This document shows positions 10,873-17,389 of a stretch of DNA of 43,531 nucleotides, in pieces; the stretch's first letter is position 1; each line of letters begins with the position of its first letter. This stretch comes from Owenweeksia hongkongensis DSM 17368 (lineage in GTDB: Bacteria > Bacteroidota > Bacteroidia > Flavobacteriales > Schleiferiaceae): positions 1 to 43,531 of the forward strand of contig CAMDTE010000005.1 of assembly GCA_945907425.1 (NCBI GenBank), written 5' to 3'. The position numbers and the translations under genes were made by a program. The notes below the pieces were generated by a model. It saw only the letters and a program-made list of their open reading frames with translations, did no database searches and was not told the origin of the DNA.

Positions 10873-11190
10873 ATGGCTCTAGAATTAACAGACGCAAACT
10901 TCCAAAGCACCGTTTTGGAATCAGACAAGCCCGTATTGGTCGATTTTTGGGCAGAATGGTGTGGCCCTTGCCGCATGGTTGGACCTATCGTAGAAGCATT
11001 GGCAGAAGATTTTGAGGGCCGTGCTGTGGTAGGTAAAGTGAATGTAGACGAGCACCAAAGCATCGCTATGCAATTTGGAATTCGCAACATTCCTACCCTT
11101 TTGGTATTCAAAAACGGAGAAATAATAGACAAACAAGTGGGCGTTGCCTCGAAAGAAGCATTGGCGCAAAAGCTTGAAGCGGCGCTTTAA
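10873..11190 (+). CDS. trxA: Thioredoxin
   Basis: A 105-residue cytosolic thioredoxin that reduces protein disulphides using electrons from thioredoxin reductase. The active site WCGPC is at residues 29-33, inside the conserved VLVDFWAEWCGPCRM stretch; the cis-proline segment NIPTLLVFKNG and the length match classical thioredoxins. It is the first gene after the TACCTTTG box. The next gene starts nine bases after its stop, so it appears to share an operon with the heptose genes. Confidence 0.95.
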   Translation: MALELTDANFQSTVLESDKPVLVDFWAEWCGPCRMVGPIVEALAEDFEGRAVVGKVNVDEHQSIAMQFGIRNIPTLLVFKNGEIIDKQVGVASKEALAQKLEAAL

Positions 11191-11199
11191 CGCGTTGAC

Positions 11200-13077
11200 G
11201 TGGTAAAAACAGCGGTACTCCTCGCTGGGGGCAAAGGAACAAGACTTTCCGCCTTGTTCCCCCAAACACCCAAACCCATGGTGCCTGTGGGCGGCATTCC
11301 TTTACTCGAACGCTTGGTGATCTCTTGCCGAGATCAAGGCATAGATACATTTTATTTTTCCGTTCATCATTTACACGAGCAAGTCCGACACCATTTTGGG
11401 GACGGATCCGCTTTTTCTGTGCGTATTAAATACCTAGAAGAGTCCTCGCCCATGGGCTCCGCAGGTATTCTACACCGTTTGGAAAATCATTGTACAGGAA
11501 CAACCCTTGTGTTGAACGCAGATGTTTTAGCGGAAATAGACTGGCAAAAGATGGCGGCCTTTCACGCCGACAAAAAAGCAGACATCACCTTGTTGGTGCA
11601 CCCTAACGACCATCCCCACGATTCGGATTTAGTGGTTATGGACAAAGAGGACAAAGTAACTGCCCTTCACAGCAAGCCTCATCCGACATCTTTGGTGGCT
11701 CGAAATTGCGTAAATGCCGGAGCTTACCTGTTGGAGCCTTTGTGTTTTTCTCTCATACCCAAAGACTTACCCTCTGATTTTGGAAAAGATTTGTTTCCAA
11801 AATGGTGTCAAGAATTGTCGATGTTCGGTTACTCTACTCCGGAATACATCAAAGACATGGGCACCCCGGAGCGCCTGAAAGAAGGGGAGGAAGCGCTCCT
11901 TTCGGGACGGGTCCAAAACCGGTCCTTGCATTTGGCTCAAAAAGCTATTTTTTTAGACCGCGACGGTGTCATCAATGAAGATACAGATCTAATTCACCGC
12001 GTAGAGGATTTTCATCTTTTCCCATGGACAGCCTCCGCTTTGCGGCGCATCAACAAAAGCGATTATTTGAGTATTGTAGTGACCAACCAAAGTGCAGTGG
12101 CCAGAGGCTTGGTAGACGAAGAGGGATTAAACGTCATCCATTCTCACATGGACACACGGTTGGGAAAGGAAGGGGCGTTTGTGGATGCACTTTATTATTG
12201 TCCACACCATCCACACGGTGGATTTCCAGGAGAAGTCATGGCTTTGAAAAAAGACTGCGCCTGTAGAAAACCCAAACCCGGTATGTTGCTTCAAGCAGCG
12301 GATCGGTTTCGTATTGATTTTTCCGATAGTTGGATGGTGGGCGATTCCGAACGAGATGTACTGGCCGGCAGAGCAGCGGGTGTAACCACTGTGGGCGTGA
12401 GGACAGGACATGGATCCAAAAACAAAGAAGCCATGCCCGAATTTCTCTTTGACCATTTGGGAGAAGCGGTAGACTATATTTTGGATCAGCCTTTTGCTCG
12501 TATTGAAAATGAATTCATGCAACGATGGGCGAAGAAAACAACGGAGGAGCCTTTTGTGATTAGTATTGGAGGGCAAGCCCGCAGCGGAAAGTCAACCTTG
12601 GCCGCTGCCTTGGCTAGAAAAGCCAGAAGAAGCGGAATAGAGTGCACATTGATTTCCTTGGATCATTGGATTCGGGCCGAAAAGGATCGGACCACGGAGG
12701 AAAAACCCTGGGATGCCTACCCGCACGACACACTGCGCAAGAACCTGGAAGATTTTCTGATACACGGAAAAGAAATGACTGCCCCTGGCTATGCCTTGCA
12801 CCCCAATGAAAGCGCCCTACCCCACACGTTCCGGAGCGCACCTTTGGTAATAATTGAAGGAGTTGTTGCTCTTTCTTTTCCTTTTTTACGCGAGTCTTCG
12901 CACTGGACATTAGCCGTGGAAACATCCGTAGAAAAAAGGAAGAAACGATTTTTGTCTTTTATGGACTGGAGAAATCGACCCGAAGAAACGGAATCCTTGT
13001 GGCAGAATCGCTTGCAAGAGGAAGTTCCCGCCATTGAAAAGGGTCTTATCTTCGCTGAAACACATCTAACAACGTGA
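11200..13077 (+). CDS. Fusion: sugar nucleotidyltransferase (HddC-like) / HAD heptose-bisphosphatase (GmhB-like) / P-loop kinase
   Basis: A 625-residue three-domain protein starting at GTG 11200. Residues about 3-235 are a nucleotidyltransferase with LLAGGKGTRL and TPKPMVPVGG, like guanylyl- or cytidylyltransferases that activate heptose 1-phosphate. Residues about 247-430 are a HAD phosphatase: FLDRDGVINE (Asp253, Asp255), VTNQS, the GmhB zinc ligands Cys334-x-His336 and Cys353-x-Cys355, and VGDSERD. Residues about 450-625 are a P-loop domain resembling uridine kinases, with Walker A GGQARSGKST (457-466); its substrate is unknown. The next two genes encode a GHMP kinase (four-base overlap) and a sedoheptulose 7-phosphate isomerase, so the fusion probably performs the last two steps to GDP-D-glycero-D-manno-heptose. 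Confidence 0.88.
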   Translation: MVKTAVLLAGGKGTRLSALFPQTPKPMVPVGGIPLLERLVISCRDQGIDTFYFSVHHLHEQVRHHFGDGSAFSVRIKYLEESSPMGSAGILHRLENHCTGTTLVLNADVLAEIDWQKMAAFHADKKADITLLVHPNDHPHDSDLVVMDKEDKVTALHSKPHPTSLVARNCVNAGAYLLEPLCFSLIPKDLPSDFGKDLFPKWCQELSMFGYSTPEYIKDMGTPERLKEGEEALLSGRVQNRSLHLAQKAIFLDRDGVINEDTDLIHRVEDFHLFPWTASALRRINKSDYLSIVVTNQSAVARGLVDEEGLNVIHSHMDTRLGKEGAFVDALYYCPHHPHGGFPGEVMALKKDCACRKPKPGMLLQAADRFRIDFSDSWMVGDSERDVLAGRAAGVTTVGVRTGHGSKNKEAMPEFLFDHLGEAVDYILDQPFARIENEFMQRWAKKTTEEPFVISIGGQARSGKSTLAAALARKARRSGIECTLISLDHWIRAEKDRTTEEKPWDAYPHDTLRKNLEDFLIHGKEMTAPGYALHPNESALPHTFRSAPLVIIEGVVALSFPFLRESSHWTLAVETSVEKRKKRFLSFMDWRNRPEETESLWQNRLQEEVPAIEKGLIFAETHLTT

Positions 13078-14060
13078 TTTTAAGCCGAACACCCTTTAGG
13101 GTAAGTTTTGTTGGGGGAGGATCTGATCTTCCCGCTTTCTATGAGCAATCGCCTGGCGCCGTACTCTCTACGAGCATCAATCGCTATATGTACATTCAAA
13201 GCCACGCTTTTTTTGAAGAGTCTTTGTGGCGCGTGAAATATGCGCAGACGGAAACCGTTCAATCACTACCCGACTTACAGCATCCTATTTTTCGTACTGT
13301 TTTTCAAAAATGGGCCATTGATAAAGGGATAGAGGTCAGCTCGATTGCAGATGTTCCTTCGGGAACCGGACTGGGCTCGAGTTCAAGCTTTACCGTAGGA
13401 CTTTTGCATAATATGCTAATTCACAAAGGATTAAATTCAATTATCACAAAAGATTTCTTAGCTCAACAAGCCTGTGAAGTGGAATTGATCGATTTGAAAG
13501 AGCCGATCGGGAAGCAGGATCAATACGCGGCAGCGCACGGTGGCTTGAATATATTTCGCTTTTTATCCGACGGACAAGTGATTACGGAACCGCTCGGTTT
13601 GTCCGCCGATGCCTTGACCGATCTCTCCTCCCATTTGGTCATGTATTACACAGGGGACCAACGGAGTGCCTCGGCTATTCTGTCAGAGCAATCTGCAAAA
13701 ACAGCCACTGAAGCGGATAAGAAAAACGCATTGCACACCATGGTCTCTTTGGTTGATCCATTGGCCGATGCTTTGCGTGCTGAAAATTGGACAGAAATGG
13801 GCCGATTCCTACACGAAAACTGGCTCTTAAAACAGAGTTTAGCCAACGGTATTTCCACTGCTTTCATTCAACAATTATACACAACGGCCCTGCGCAATGG
13901 CGCTACAGGAGGAAAGTTATTAGGTGCTGGAGGGGGCGGGTTTTTATTATTTTTCTGTCCTCCTTCCGAGCAGGATCGATTGGATATGGCACTGCACGCT
14001 GTACGAAAATTTCCTTTCTCGTTTGAGTCGGAAGGTTCAAAAGTTCTTTATGCTGATTAA
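13074..14060 (+). CDS. hddA: GHMP kinase, probable D-glycero-D-manno-heptose 7-phosphate kinase
   Basis: A 328-residue GHMP-family kinase. Motif 1 is near RTPFRVSFVGGGSDLPAFY (about 5-23), the ATP-binding motif is VPSGTGLGSSSSF (about 94-106), and the C-terminal motif is GGKLLGAGGGGF. The N-terminal GGGSDLP stretch and neighbourhood fit HddA, which phosphorylates D-glycero-D-manno-heptose 7-phosphate at C1. The product would be the substrate of the HAD domain of the upstream fusion. Start is GTG 13074, overlapping the fusion's TGA by four bases. L-fucose- or galactose-kinase-like activity is possible but less consistent with a neighbouring gmhA. Confidence 0.85.
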   Translation: MILSRTPFRVSFVGGGSDLPAFYEQSPGAVLSTSINRYMYIQSHAFFEESLWRVKYAQTETVQSLPDLQHPIFRTVFQKWAIDKGIEVSSIADVPSGTGLGSSSSFTVGLLHNMLIHKGLNSIITKDFLAQQACEVELIDLKEPIGKQDQYAAAHGGLNIFRFLSDGQVITEPLGLSADALTDLSSHLVMYYTGDQRSASAILSEQSAKTATEADKKNALHTMVSLVDPLADALRAENWTEMGRFLHENWLLKQSLANGISTAFIQQLYTTALRNGATGGKLLGAGGGGFLLFFCPPSEQDRLDMALHAVRKFPFSFESEGSKVLYAD

Positions 14061-14069
14061 CTTACGTCC

Positions 14070-14669
14070 ATGAAACCCACTGAATACCGCTCCTTACTTA
14101 TACAAACACTGGAAACCCTGGATATGGAATCCGTGGATCGCTTGGCCGATGGTTTTTCCAAGGCATACGAAAACGGCTCCACTATTTACACCATGGGAAA
14201 CGGCGGCTCTGGCGCTAGTGCATCCCATGCCGCGGGAGATTTTTTGAAAGGAGCAAGTTTTGGCTTGAACAAACGGTTTCGAATGATCTGTTTGAACGAC
14301 AATTTGCCTTCCCTGATGGCTATTGCAAACGACATTGGCTGGGACGATATTTTCGTTGAACCCCTCAAGAATTTCTTGAAACCCGGCGATTTGGTTATTG
14401 GGATTTCAGGTAGCGGCAATTCCAAAAACGTGCTGAAAGCCATTGCCTATGCCAAAGAACACGGCGCTGTAACCGCAGGCTTGACGGGGTATTCTGGAGG
14501 AGTATTGGCTACTCAGGTGGATATTCATGTGCATTCCGCAGCCAACGATATGGAAGTGGCGGAGGATGTCCACATGGCTGTATTCAACATGGTGAAGAAA
14601 ACGATGATGAATAAGTACATGGGAGAAAGCCCGAGTATGGGCAGCACCTACGATGCTCGAGTAAAATAA
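14070..14669 (+). CDS. gmhA: SIS-domain sedoheptulose 7-phosphate isomerase
   Basis: A 199-residue SIS-domain protein with the phosphosugar-binding MGNGGSGASASHAAGDF (about 42-58) and the second SIS motif GISGSGNSKNVLKAI. GmhA isomerises sedoheptulose 7-phosphate to D-glycero-D-manno-heptose 7-phosphate, the first step of heptose activation. It lies nine bases after hddA. Together with hddA and the fusion it supplies all steps to a nucleotide-activated heptose for lipopolysaccharide, S-layer or other glycan. Its stop is one base from the stop of the convergent subtilase gene, and no hairpin terminator is seen there. Confidence 0.88.
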   Translation: MKPTEYRSLLIQTLETLDMESVDRLADGFSKAYENGSTIYTMGNGGSGASASHAAGDFLKGASFGLNKRFRMICLNDNLPSLMAIANDIGWDDIFVEPLKNFLKPGDLVIGISGSGNSKNVLKAIAYAKEHGAVTAGLTGYSGGVLATQVDIHVHSAANDMEVAEDVHMAVFNMVKKTMMNKYMGESPSMGSTYDARVK

Positions 14670-14670
14670 A

Positions 14671-16230
14671 TCAGCGCATCAATCGTGCGCCGTAGAGCGC
14701 AGAACCCACCCGAACACGCACCACCACTGGACCCGAAGGGAGGGACAGGGAATGGACGAATCGCCCGTTCTCTACGAAAACATTTTCTTGGAAAAACAAA
14801 ACCCTCCCAGCAAGGTCTAGGACAGAAAGTGTGGCTTTTCCTGAAAATTCATCGTCCCATTTTCCGTTCAATCCCTCCGCTGAGAACCAAAACGAAACGC
14901 CAGGAGCGCCGTATTCTTTTTGTCCAATAAACGTATCCGCCATCCCGAAATTGGGTATTCCCCACCCCATCAGGGTATCCGGGCTAAATCCTTGACTCGC
15001 TGTGAGTCGAAGTACAGACAAAATATCTTGAGCCGTACGTGTGGGATGCTTCTGCATCAAGCAAGCCGTCATTCCGCACAAAATTGGGGAACTGAAACTG
15101 GTTCCATTCCCTGTCACGATGTCCCCTGCGCCATTCACAATGCCTGCCTGCCCTCCCAACGCCATCAAATCGGGTTTGATACGAGCATCAGAGCTAGGCC
15201 CTTGACTACTGAACGGGGTACGAACACCCATGGGGTTCACCGCGCCTACTGTCAATACGCTGTCCGCGTCCGCTGGAGCCGTTATATGCCTCCAAGAGGA
15301 AGAGCCTTCGTTGCCCGCGGATACACAAACCAGGATGCCCGCTTGCGCTGCTTTCACGGCCGCACGAGAAATCGGCGTCGTTCTACCGTTCATATCCGCA
15401 TAGCTGTGATTGTCCAATGGGTTGTCAAAGACACTGTACCCCAAGGAGGTATTCATAAGATCTGCGCCCAGGCTATCTGCCCATTCCGCCGCCCGAACCC
15501 AATGCAGTTCTTCTAGGGGCGTTTCCGAAGCGACAATTTCTGTTTTGAACAATGAAAAAGTGGCCTTTGGGGCCGTACCCACAAAGAGTCCGTTCAGATC
15601 AGAGCACATGGTAGACAAAACACTGGTTCCGTGTGTACTGGACTCAAAAACATTGGTATCTCCATCGGTAAAATCTTTCGTTGTCACGATTCTGTTTTGA
15701 GCAAATAGGGACGCAAAGGCACCCAGGGCAGGAACCCCGCTAAATCCAGCATCCATTACCGCAATATGCATACCTGCAGCGTCATAAAAGGCGTCGTGCA
15801 GAGGTACTCCATTCAATTGCTGTATGGCCGTGAGTCCGGAACCATAGGCATAGCTCTCGGTGGATTCCTCCGCCCAACTCGTTGAGCGCATAGGAGTGGT
15901 GTACAGCACGAAATCTTCCGGTAAGGGTTTTGCCTCGTTCGTCTTTTGTACAGCAACTGCATTGAGATACCGGGAAGCGCCCAGTACGTGATACCCTAGC
16001 GTTTGAATTCTTTGGATGTCCGCTTGGGCTACAGGATAATCGGAAGGCTGCAACGGAATGGCCGCGCGTTGCCGACGAAGCAAGGCTTTTTCGCCCAAGG
16101 CAGGAGAAACGATACAACGCGCGGGGTTATCCTCTAAAAAAATCCAGAAGGGCTGGGACTGTGGAACTACTTGGCCCATCGCTAAGGAAGAAACAAGGAA
16201 GATAAAAGAAAGGGTGTAGAATTTTTTCAT
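14671..16230 (-). CDS. Secreted S8 (subtilisin-family) serine protease, probable T9SS substrate
   Basis: A 519-residue protease with a signal peptide (MKKFYTLSFIFLVSSLAMGQ). The subtilase triad is complete: Asp160 in HIAVMDAGFSG, His200 in SSTHGTSV, Ser378 in GNGTSFSSP; the oxyanion Asn307 is in VSAGNEGS. Residues about 30-145 may be a propeptide-like region. The last 75 residues (from about KATLSVLDLAGRVLF to LYGARLMR) are beta-rich and end in a basic motif like type IX secretion sorting domains, so export to the cell surface or medium is inferred. ATG 16230 is chosen for the signal peptide; the frame is open upstream into mnmA. It is the last gene of the ftsY-to-subtilase block, ten bases after mnmA. 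Confidence 0.88.
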   Translation of the reverse strand: MKKFYTLSFIFLVSSLAMGQVVPQSQPFWIFLEDNPARCIVSPALGEKALLRRQRAAIPLQPSDYPVAQADIQRIQTLGYHVLGASRYLNAVAVQKTNEAKPLPEDFVLYTTPMRSTSWAEESTESYAYGSGLTAIQQLNGVPLHDAFYDAAGMHIAVMDAGFSGVPALGAFASLFAQNRIVTTKDFTDGDTNVFESSTHGTSVLSTMCSDLNGLFVGTAPKATFSLFKTEIVASETPLEELHWVRAAEWADSLGADLMNTSLGYSVFDNPLDNHSYADMNGRTTPISRAAVKAAQAGILVCVSAGNEGSSSWRHITAPADADSVLTVGAVNPMGVRTPFSSQGPSSDARIKPDLMALGGQAGIVNGAGDIVTGNGTSFSSPILCGMTACLMQKHPTRTAQDILSVLRLTASQGFSPDTLMGWGIPNFGMADTFIGQKEYGAPGVSFWFSAEGLNGKWDDEFSGKATLSVLDLAGRVLFFQENVFVENGRFVHSLSLPSGPVVVRVRVGSALYGARLMR

Positions 16231-16240
16231 AAATGGGGCA

Positions 16241-17389
16241 TTACGCGAGCATGGCACCAGAAGCCACACACTCATTGTCAAGGTACAAGGCAAGGAATTG
16301 TCCTGCCGCAACAGCTTTCTGGGGATGAGAAAAATCAACTCGAAGTGAGCCGTCTTCCAAACAACAAACCGATGCTTTTTGCAAGGGTTGACGGTATCGA
16401 ATGCGGGCCATAGCTTCCATTCGTTCGCCCGGATGCAAGGCCAAATCTGGACGAATCCAATGAACATCCTCGGCAGCAATGGCTACAAAGGGTCTGTAGA
16501 GTCCCGGAAAATCTTTCGATTGGCCTACATACACTGTATTGGTATGTGTATCTGTAGCCACCACAAAAAGAGGGTTCGGCTTCCCTCCTACCCACAATCC
16601 TTTTCTTTGCCCAATGGTGAAATAATGGGCCCCCGAATGAGTTCCTACCACCTTTCCCATGGAAGGCGATAACGCCCACGATTTACCAAAAAGAGGGTGG
16701 GACCACAAGGGAAGATCGGATGGCAACTCCACAATATCCCCTTTTTTGGGCTCCAATTGCTGTTGCAAGAAATCGGGAAGCTTTACTTTTCCTATAAAGC
16801 ACAATCCTTGGGAGTCCTTTTTGTCAGCCGTCGCTAGCCCTAAAGAAGAGGCCCGTTTTCGTACCTCTGTTTTCTTCAGGTGTCCAATAGGAAACAATGC
16901 TTTGGCCAATTGTTCCTGGGTCAATTGGCATAAAAAATAGCTCTGATCCTTGCTTGAGTCTTCCCCAGCCAGCAGTGTATACAAACCCCCTGGCGTTACT
17001 CCTTTTTGGACATAGTGACCCGTTGCCACAAAGTCCGCGCCCAAAGACAAGGCGGCCTTTAGAAACAAATCGAATTTTATTTCACGATTGCAAAGGATGT
17101 CCGGATTGGGTGTTCGACCGGCTTGATATTCCGCAAACATGTAATCCACAATACGCTCTTTGTACGGCGTTGATAAGTCCAACACTTGAAAGGGTATGCC
17201 CAATTTTTCGGCCACGAGCAATGCGTCATTGGAATCCTCAACCCAAGGACATTCTGCTTCCAGCGTAACAGAAGCATCGTTCCAATTGCGCATAAACAAA
17301 CCAATCACTTCGTGCCCTTGCTGTTGCAACAAGGCCGCAGCAACACTGCTATCCACACCACCGGAAAGGCCAACCACTACGCGGGCCAT
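16241..17389 (-). CDS. mnmA: tRNA-specific 2-thiouridylase MnmA
   Basis: MnmA adds sulphur to U34 of tRNA-Lys, -Glu and -Gln. The 382-residue product has the PP-loop SGGVDSS (residues 9-15), the catalytic Cys100 in NPDILCN and Cys197 in DSQGLCFIG, plus the ATGHY segment and a C-terminal beta-barrel. Length is typical. It starts one base after the stop of the MORN-like gene, so translation is probably coupled. Confidence 0.96.

Follow-up and report, generated by a model that had tools for sequence, protein, structure and literature searches.

We analysed a window of 43,531 nucleotides (the whole stretch of DNA examined) from Owenweeksia hongkongensis DSM 17368 (assembly GCA_945907425.1, contig CAMDTE010000005.1) and focused on a three-gene operon that opens with the gene for a triple-fusion protein. 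As judged from its sequence, the operon belongs to a known kind, that of heptose-type nucleotide-sugar synthesis, but departs from it in two ways: the first protein has a conserved kinase fused to it, and the active site of the isomerase is rebuilt. One chain combines an apparently intact nucleotidyltransferase, a GmhB-type HAD phosphatase and a P-loop small-molecule kinase, and the next gene encodes a predicted HddA-like sugar 1-kinase, also intact. The third product, a SIS-domain isomerase, falls in a separate clade whose metal-binding and catalytic residues have changed together. The reading that we favour, with modest confidence, is a sugar-nucleotide operon of heptose type in which the isomerase is altered and the extra kinase phosphorylates a sugar from the same pathway.

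Architecture and distribution of the fusion protein

GmhA, HddA, GmhB and HddC act in series to produce GDP-D-glycero-D-manno-heptose. The operon resembles this series in encoding a SIS isomerase, a GHMP 1-kinase, a zinc-binding HAD phosphatase and a nucleotidyltransferase, with intact sites in the GHMP and HAD proteins. It differs in that transferase and phosphatase are fused, an extra kinase follows them, the isomerase site is rebuilt and the transferase scores below the HddC cut-off. The P-loop kinase has no place in the series, as the first-pass annotation of this DNA had already remarked.

The fusion of nucleotidyltransferase, phosphatase and kinase seen at that stage was borne out by domain searches and by 28 further full-length homologues with the identical domain order (34-58% identity), in which the catalytic motifs are invariant. 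Such recurrence goes far beyond what chance would give. An AlphaFold2 model of the whole chain had a mean predicted local distance difference test score (pLDDT) of 93.2 and a predicted template modelling score (pTM) of 0.92. The three-domain protein is complete in ~20 of 60 related genomes, every frame being open and without stops, whereas the first two domains alone are present in six genomes, which belong to genera g6 and g12 of the same family. In one genome (G027) a match running into the kinase region with stops was considered as a kinase remnant and rejected; there the GHMP gene starts directly after the phosphatase.

The same architecture recurs in Flavobacteriales and in other phyla, with the GHMP and SIS genes adjoining the fusion, or its two-domain form, in most genomes. 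A scan of GTDB recovered the three-domain form, besides Flavobacteriales, from betaproteobacteria (Roseateles, Pelomonas, Pandoraea, Aquabacterium and Polynucleobacter), one Chlorobiaceae metagenome-assembled genome (MAG) and one spirochaete MAG. The two-domain form was found in Treponema, Prevotella, Gastranaerophilales, Clostridia and candidate phyla; such HddC-GmhB-type fusions (~430 residues) are widespread. The two-domain proteins of Treponema, Prevotella, Gastranaerophilales and others resemble the first two domains and share the GHMP and SIS neighbours, but they lack the kinase, and the isomerase in Treponema, Prevotella and Clostridia has ordinary GmhA residues. When Burkholderiales were surveyed with one kinase sequence, a single ordinary uridine kinase was recovered besides the query genome itself, and the fusion is therefore patchy in that group. 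In the literature searched we found neither a published description of the three-domain fusion nor a paper on the two-domain proteins.

Of 37 genomes in the family to which the window belongs, 24 had both the HddA-like kinase and the fusion (or its two-domain form), 10 had neither and 3 were discordant (Fisher p 2e-6). Several genomes have the two genes in non-adjacent positions. The co-occurrence, which also holds where the genes are unlinked, ties both products to one pathway. In the betaproteobacterial, Chlorobi, spirochaete and Gastranaerophilales loci, genes for an NAD-dependent sugar epimerase and GT2 glycosyltransferases lie beside the operon, as in a surface polysaccharide locus.

HldE and the actinobacterial tridomain NDP-heptose synthetases (Tang et al. 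2022, cited in PMC11573728) likewise carry several heptose-activating steps on one chain. The actinobacterial proteins join isomerase, kinase and transferase for ADP-beta-heptose. In contrast, the present chain joins transferase, phosphatase and a uridine-kinase-like domain, and the 1-kinase and isomerase are separate genes.

Transferase, phosphatase and GHMP kinase

The transferase domain had been called HddC-like. By sequence it is an intact nucleotidyltransferase, with G10, G11, G13, R15, K25, D108 and D219 invariant in the 29 homologues, and resembles both HddC and mannose-1-phosphate guanylyltransferase. The match to the HddC model NF049965 (E 9e-19) scored 71 bits, below the cut-off of 300, and the best NCBIfam model was man1P_GTase_Rv, a mannose-1-phosphate guanylyltransferase (8e-43).

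The HAD domain matched E. coli GmhB (2gmw) at E 3e-35. It scored 178.9 bits against PRK08942.1 when taken alone and 175.9 bits as part of the entire chain (cut-off 178). The HAD motifs and the CxH...CxC zinc loop of GmhB are both in place. The zinc ligands (C334, H336, C353 and C355) and the catalytic residues (D253/D255, T295, K357 and D382) are invariant in the 29 homologues, in agreement with the initial description of a heptose-like phosphatase with zinc ligands.

The GHMP kinase matched the HddA model NF049969 (E 1.3e-41) and PDB entry 3k85 (E 1.6e-41). Its score of 143 bits is below the NF049969 cut-off of 600, a very strict threshold that 0 genomes among 60 relatives and 14 controls reached. 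In the heptokinase WcbL, mutation of R13, D22, S118-S120, Q162 or D163 abolished activity (PMC4691232). All of these residues are kept here (R9, D18, S102-S104, Q148 and D149) and are invariant in the 56 closest relatives, which upholds the identification of a heptose-type kinase.

The fused P-loop kinase

The AlphaFold2 model of the third domain had a pLDDT of 94.7. Three groups of solved folds came equally close, at Z ~20 over 170-191 residues (root mean square deviation 2.3-2.6 over 173-191 residues): uridine-cytidine kinases, pantothenate kinases and phosphoribulokinases. The profile search agreed. Single-sequence matches to uridine-kinase models were weak (E 7e-10); PF00485 was matched by 28 of the 29 fused kinases at E <= 0.001. 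The domain shares with this superfamily (uridine-cytidine kinase/phosphoribulokinase/pantothenate kinase) the fold, the P-loop (Walker A) and the catalytic aspartate. Matches to RecA were discarded, being P-loop matches added up over artificial repeats.

Nine residues of the kinase are invariant in 29/29 sequences: G458, G463 and K464 of the Walker A motif, D488, W490, R497, G554, R604 and E608, the catalytic D488 being equivalent to Asp62 of UCK2. A degenerate remnant, the outcome that would have undone the original interpretation of this domain, was rejected on these invariant motifs, and the domain is intact as judged by sequence.

Unlike uridine kinases, the fused kinases lack the nucleoside motif, have a conserved signature of their own (D-x-W ... 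R) and form a separate clade (support 0.91 against 21 uridine kinases, rooted on UCK2). The N-F/Y-D-x-P segment, which includes UCK2 Asp84, is present in 21/21 aligned uridine kinases and in 0/29 fused kinases, and the equivalent of the base-reading UCK2 His117 is absent from all 29. Asp84 and His117 have nucleoside-binding roles in UCK2 (PMC9163393). The domain is probably an ATP-dependent small-molecule kinase, likely for a sugar or another small molecule, and most likely not a nucleoside kinase.

Searches for a detached copy of the kinase in genera without the fused domain revealed none; the matches in G025 and G006 were without the D-x-W signature. Long-frame matches in other Bacteroidota (G295, G289 and G285) were ordinary uridine kinases or other kinases. 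We also considered polynucleotide kinase 3'-phosphatase, in which a HAD phosphatase precedes a P-loop kinase. The fusion has the two fold types in the same order, but its HAD domain is GmhB-type with the GmhB zinc loop and its kinase is of the uridine kinase group; with a weak PNK3P match (E 0.011), this identity was rejected.

The SIS protein differs from GmhA in active site and clade

The third gene had been annotated as gmhA. GmhAs are the closest solved relatives of its product, which nevertheless scored 95.6 bits against the GmhA model TIGR00441 (cut-off 209). In Burkholderia pseudomallei GmhA the zinc ligands H64, E68, Q175 and H183 are "completely conserved", and mutating any of them lowers activity; D61A leaves 6% activity, and a Q175E crystal contained unconverted substrate (PMC5705639). 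The window protein has S50, H53, D57, E165 and N173 at the positions of D61, H64, E68, Q175 and H183, so that only H64 is retained.

These exchanges are shared across a clade that is separate from GmhA in the tree (support 0.999). Counted over distinct sequences, the site of the channel residue D61 is S or T in 36/36 members of the altered clade and D in 43/43 GmhA-type proteins. The E68 site is D in 36/36 altered proteins and the Q175 site E in 35/35; at the H183 site, 14 proteins have H and 19 have N. The canonical residues are found in all 43 of the GmhA-type proteins, which come from two-domain operons.

A separate ordinary GmhA occurs in betaproteobacterial, spirochaete, planctomycete and Gastranaerophilales genomes and in one genome of the family (G019). 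An HldE/HldA-type kinase was found in the three ordinary-GmhA genomes tested (searched: G019, G351, G353 and G359). G019 is the only family genome checked that has the altered-isomerase operon together with an ordinary GmhA and an HldA-like kinase (L027, L141); in this genome ~4 kb separate the fusion from the GHMP and SIS genes. G000, G005, G010, G013 and G015 have neither an ordinary GmhA nor an HldE/HldA-type kinase.

Thus, the third gene is predicted not to be GmhA, given that four of five active-site residues are changed and that its clade is a separate one, found alongside ordinary GmhA in the same genomes; the earlier assignment is not supported. Because the exchange is uniform and coordinated and the histidine is kept, it looks like changed chemistry or a changed substrate rather than decay.

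Association of the kinase with the altered isomerase

A tree built on the first two domains placed every kinase-bearing protein within the altered-isomerase clade (support 1.0). The isomerase was of the altered type in 19/19 kinase-bearing loci with a visible SIS gene, and the kinase occurred in 0/43 GmhA-type loci. The fused kinases are monophyletic, and we therefore favour a single origin of the domain; either genera g6 and g12, at least, have lost it, or it was acquired on several occasions. One Staskawiczbacteria locus (L084:1183-4086) combines a first-two-domain protein inside the altered clade with an isomerase that has ordinary GmhA residues. It possibly represents an exchange or the ancestral state, and would be useful for timing the change.

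The locus and its neighbours

The ORF coordinates (Table 1) agree with the initial placement of the three genes and of the four-base overlap.

Table 1. Genes and domains of the operon (open reading frame, ORF), in positions of the window.
Feature	Position	Strand	Basis or remark
Triple-fusion protein, 625 residues	11200..13077	+	ORF, GTG start; nucleotidyltransferase + HAD phosphatase + P-loop kinase
Nucleotidyltransferase domain, residues 5-233	11212..11898	+	PF00483 (NTP_transferase) E 1e-28
GmhB-type HAD phosphatase domain, residues 247-428	11938..12483	+	PRK08942.1 E 5e-52
P-loop kinase domain, residues ~450-625	12547..13074	+	Uridine kinase/phosphoribulokinase fold
HddA-like GHMP (sugar 1-) kinase, 328 residues	13074..14060	+	GTG start
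Four-base overlap, end of fusion gene/start of GHMP kinase gene	13074..13077	+	
SIS-domain (SIS_2-family) protein, GmhA relative with predicted rebuilt metal/catalytic site	14070..14669	+	

The SIS gene starts nine bases past the GHMP kinase gene. Nine bases also separate the fusion gene from the end of a thioredoxin gene (10873-11190), and the two may be on one transcript. A short gene of similar size precedes the fusion likewise in L022, L035, L037, L046, L048 and L050. In a promoter and terminator scan, promoter-like sites were no commoner than in shuffled sequence. Convergent with the operon is a gene for a subtilisin-like secreted protease (14671-16479, minus strand), a conserved neighbour across most of the family, as is mnmA behind it.

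Proposed pathway and alternatives

In the pathway that we propose, the altered isomerase would convert a ketose phosphate (sedoheptulose 7-phosphate or a relative) to an aldose 7-phosphate. The GHMP kinase would then add a 1-phosphate, the HAD domain would take off the 7-phosphate, and the transferase domain would make the NDP-sugar. In other phyla, the neighbouring epimerase and GT2 glycosyltransferases could use this NDP-sugar for surface polysaccharide. The fused kinase would phosphorylate a sugar of the same pathway and not a nucleoside. Tentatively, it may make a phosphorylated seven-carbon sugar, by feeding or salvage, for the GHMP kinase and the phosphatase. Since the isomerase differs from GmhA in its active site, the sugar produced may be a different stereoisomer from D-glycero-D-manno-heptose. 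HygP of hygromycin B is an isomerase that makes altro-heptose 7-phosphate. An NDP-sugar other than GDP-D-glycero-D-manno-heptose, with the isomerase (Glu/Gln of GmhA being Asp/Glu at its metal) yielding another epimer or taking another ketose phosphate and the fused kinase being a new sugar-kinase activity that feeds the route, is conceivable, though on balance we doubt it; it would amount to an undescribed nucleotide-sugar pathway common to several phyla.

Several observations weigh against the proposed pathway. Two genera of the family keep the remaining operon but have lost the kinase or never had it, and it is also missing in Gastranaerophilales, Planctomycetota and others with the rest of the operon; it is therefore dispensable for the core route. 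Its association with the altered isomerase is confounded by descent: both sit in one clade, and the association is thus not independent functional evidence. The transferase family fixes neither nucleotide nor sugar. Finally, no polysaccharide cluster surrounds the operon of the window, where the neighbours are housekeeping genes.

The alternative that survives best, which we consider rather unlikely, is the canonical route: the SIS protein would be a GmhA that has drifted yet still works, and the kinase an accessory, for example in salvage of free heptose, with the product unchanged. Of the four canonical activities, three can be recognised and have their catalytic residues intact, the solved structures closest to the SIS protein are GmhAs, and D,D-manno-heptose is the sole proven product of such gene sets (PMC10680097). 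However, the equivalents of Asp61, Glu68 and Gln175 are replaced uniformly and jointly across the clade, which is not drift; the zinc ligands are fully conserved in GmhA, and Q175E, the same exchange as here, held unconverted substrate (PMC5705639). In addition, several genomes retain a separate ordinary GmhA. The first pass had the operon yield GDP-D-glycero-D-manno-heptose; with an isomerase that is not of GmhA type, a route to GDP-D,D-manno-heptose that includes one additional step is no more than plausible.

PFK-2/FBPase-2 is a regulatory pair of kinase and phosphatase. A similar arrangement, in which the kinase would restore the phosphate removed by the HAD domain and so tune flux, would suit two domains that are adjacent in one chain and modelled in one well-defined arrangement (pTM as given above). 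We regard it as improbable: no effector-binding domain is visible in the fusion chain, and many lineages manage with the two-domain form, without the kinase.

A nucleoside kinase that substitutes for a missing uridine kinase, tied to the pathway by chance or through nucleotide supply, is very unlikely. The top family models and folds are uridine kinases, and a standard uridine kinase (Udk) was found in none of the 37 genomes of the window's family (f1), in which pyrimidine salvage must differ. However, the nucleoside-binding motif is absent in 29/29 fused kinases, and Udk is absent equally with or without the fusion, leaving no pattern of replacement. Families f2, f3, f4, f6 and f9 of the same order do have Udk. 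One Burkholderiales genome (G561, L172:1489-2800) has two uridine-kinase-like genes in tandem, directly next to each other.

An assembly artefact or decaying remnant, conceivable in a draft genome of 124 contigs, has a negligible chance, being refuted by the invariant motifs and by recurrence of the architecture in 28 other assemblies, which include isolates (Roseateles, Pandoraea) and a complete 4.0-Mb chromosome.

Implications

Annotation pipelines assign these genes to heptose synthesis, and many bacteria would accordingly be predicted to make manno-heptose. The clade of altered isomerases, with its exclusive link to the fused kinase, offers a clean case where the product may depart from that prediction and a further step may be involved. 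The Q175E exchange is natural in the altered clade and the corresponding mutant has already been crystallised, making the mechanism directly approachable.

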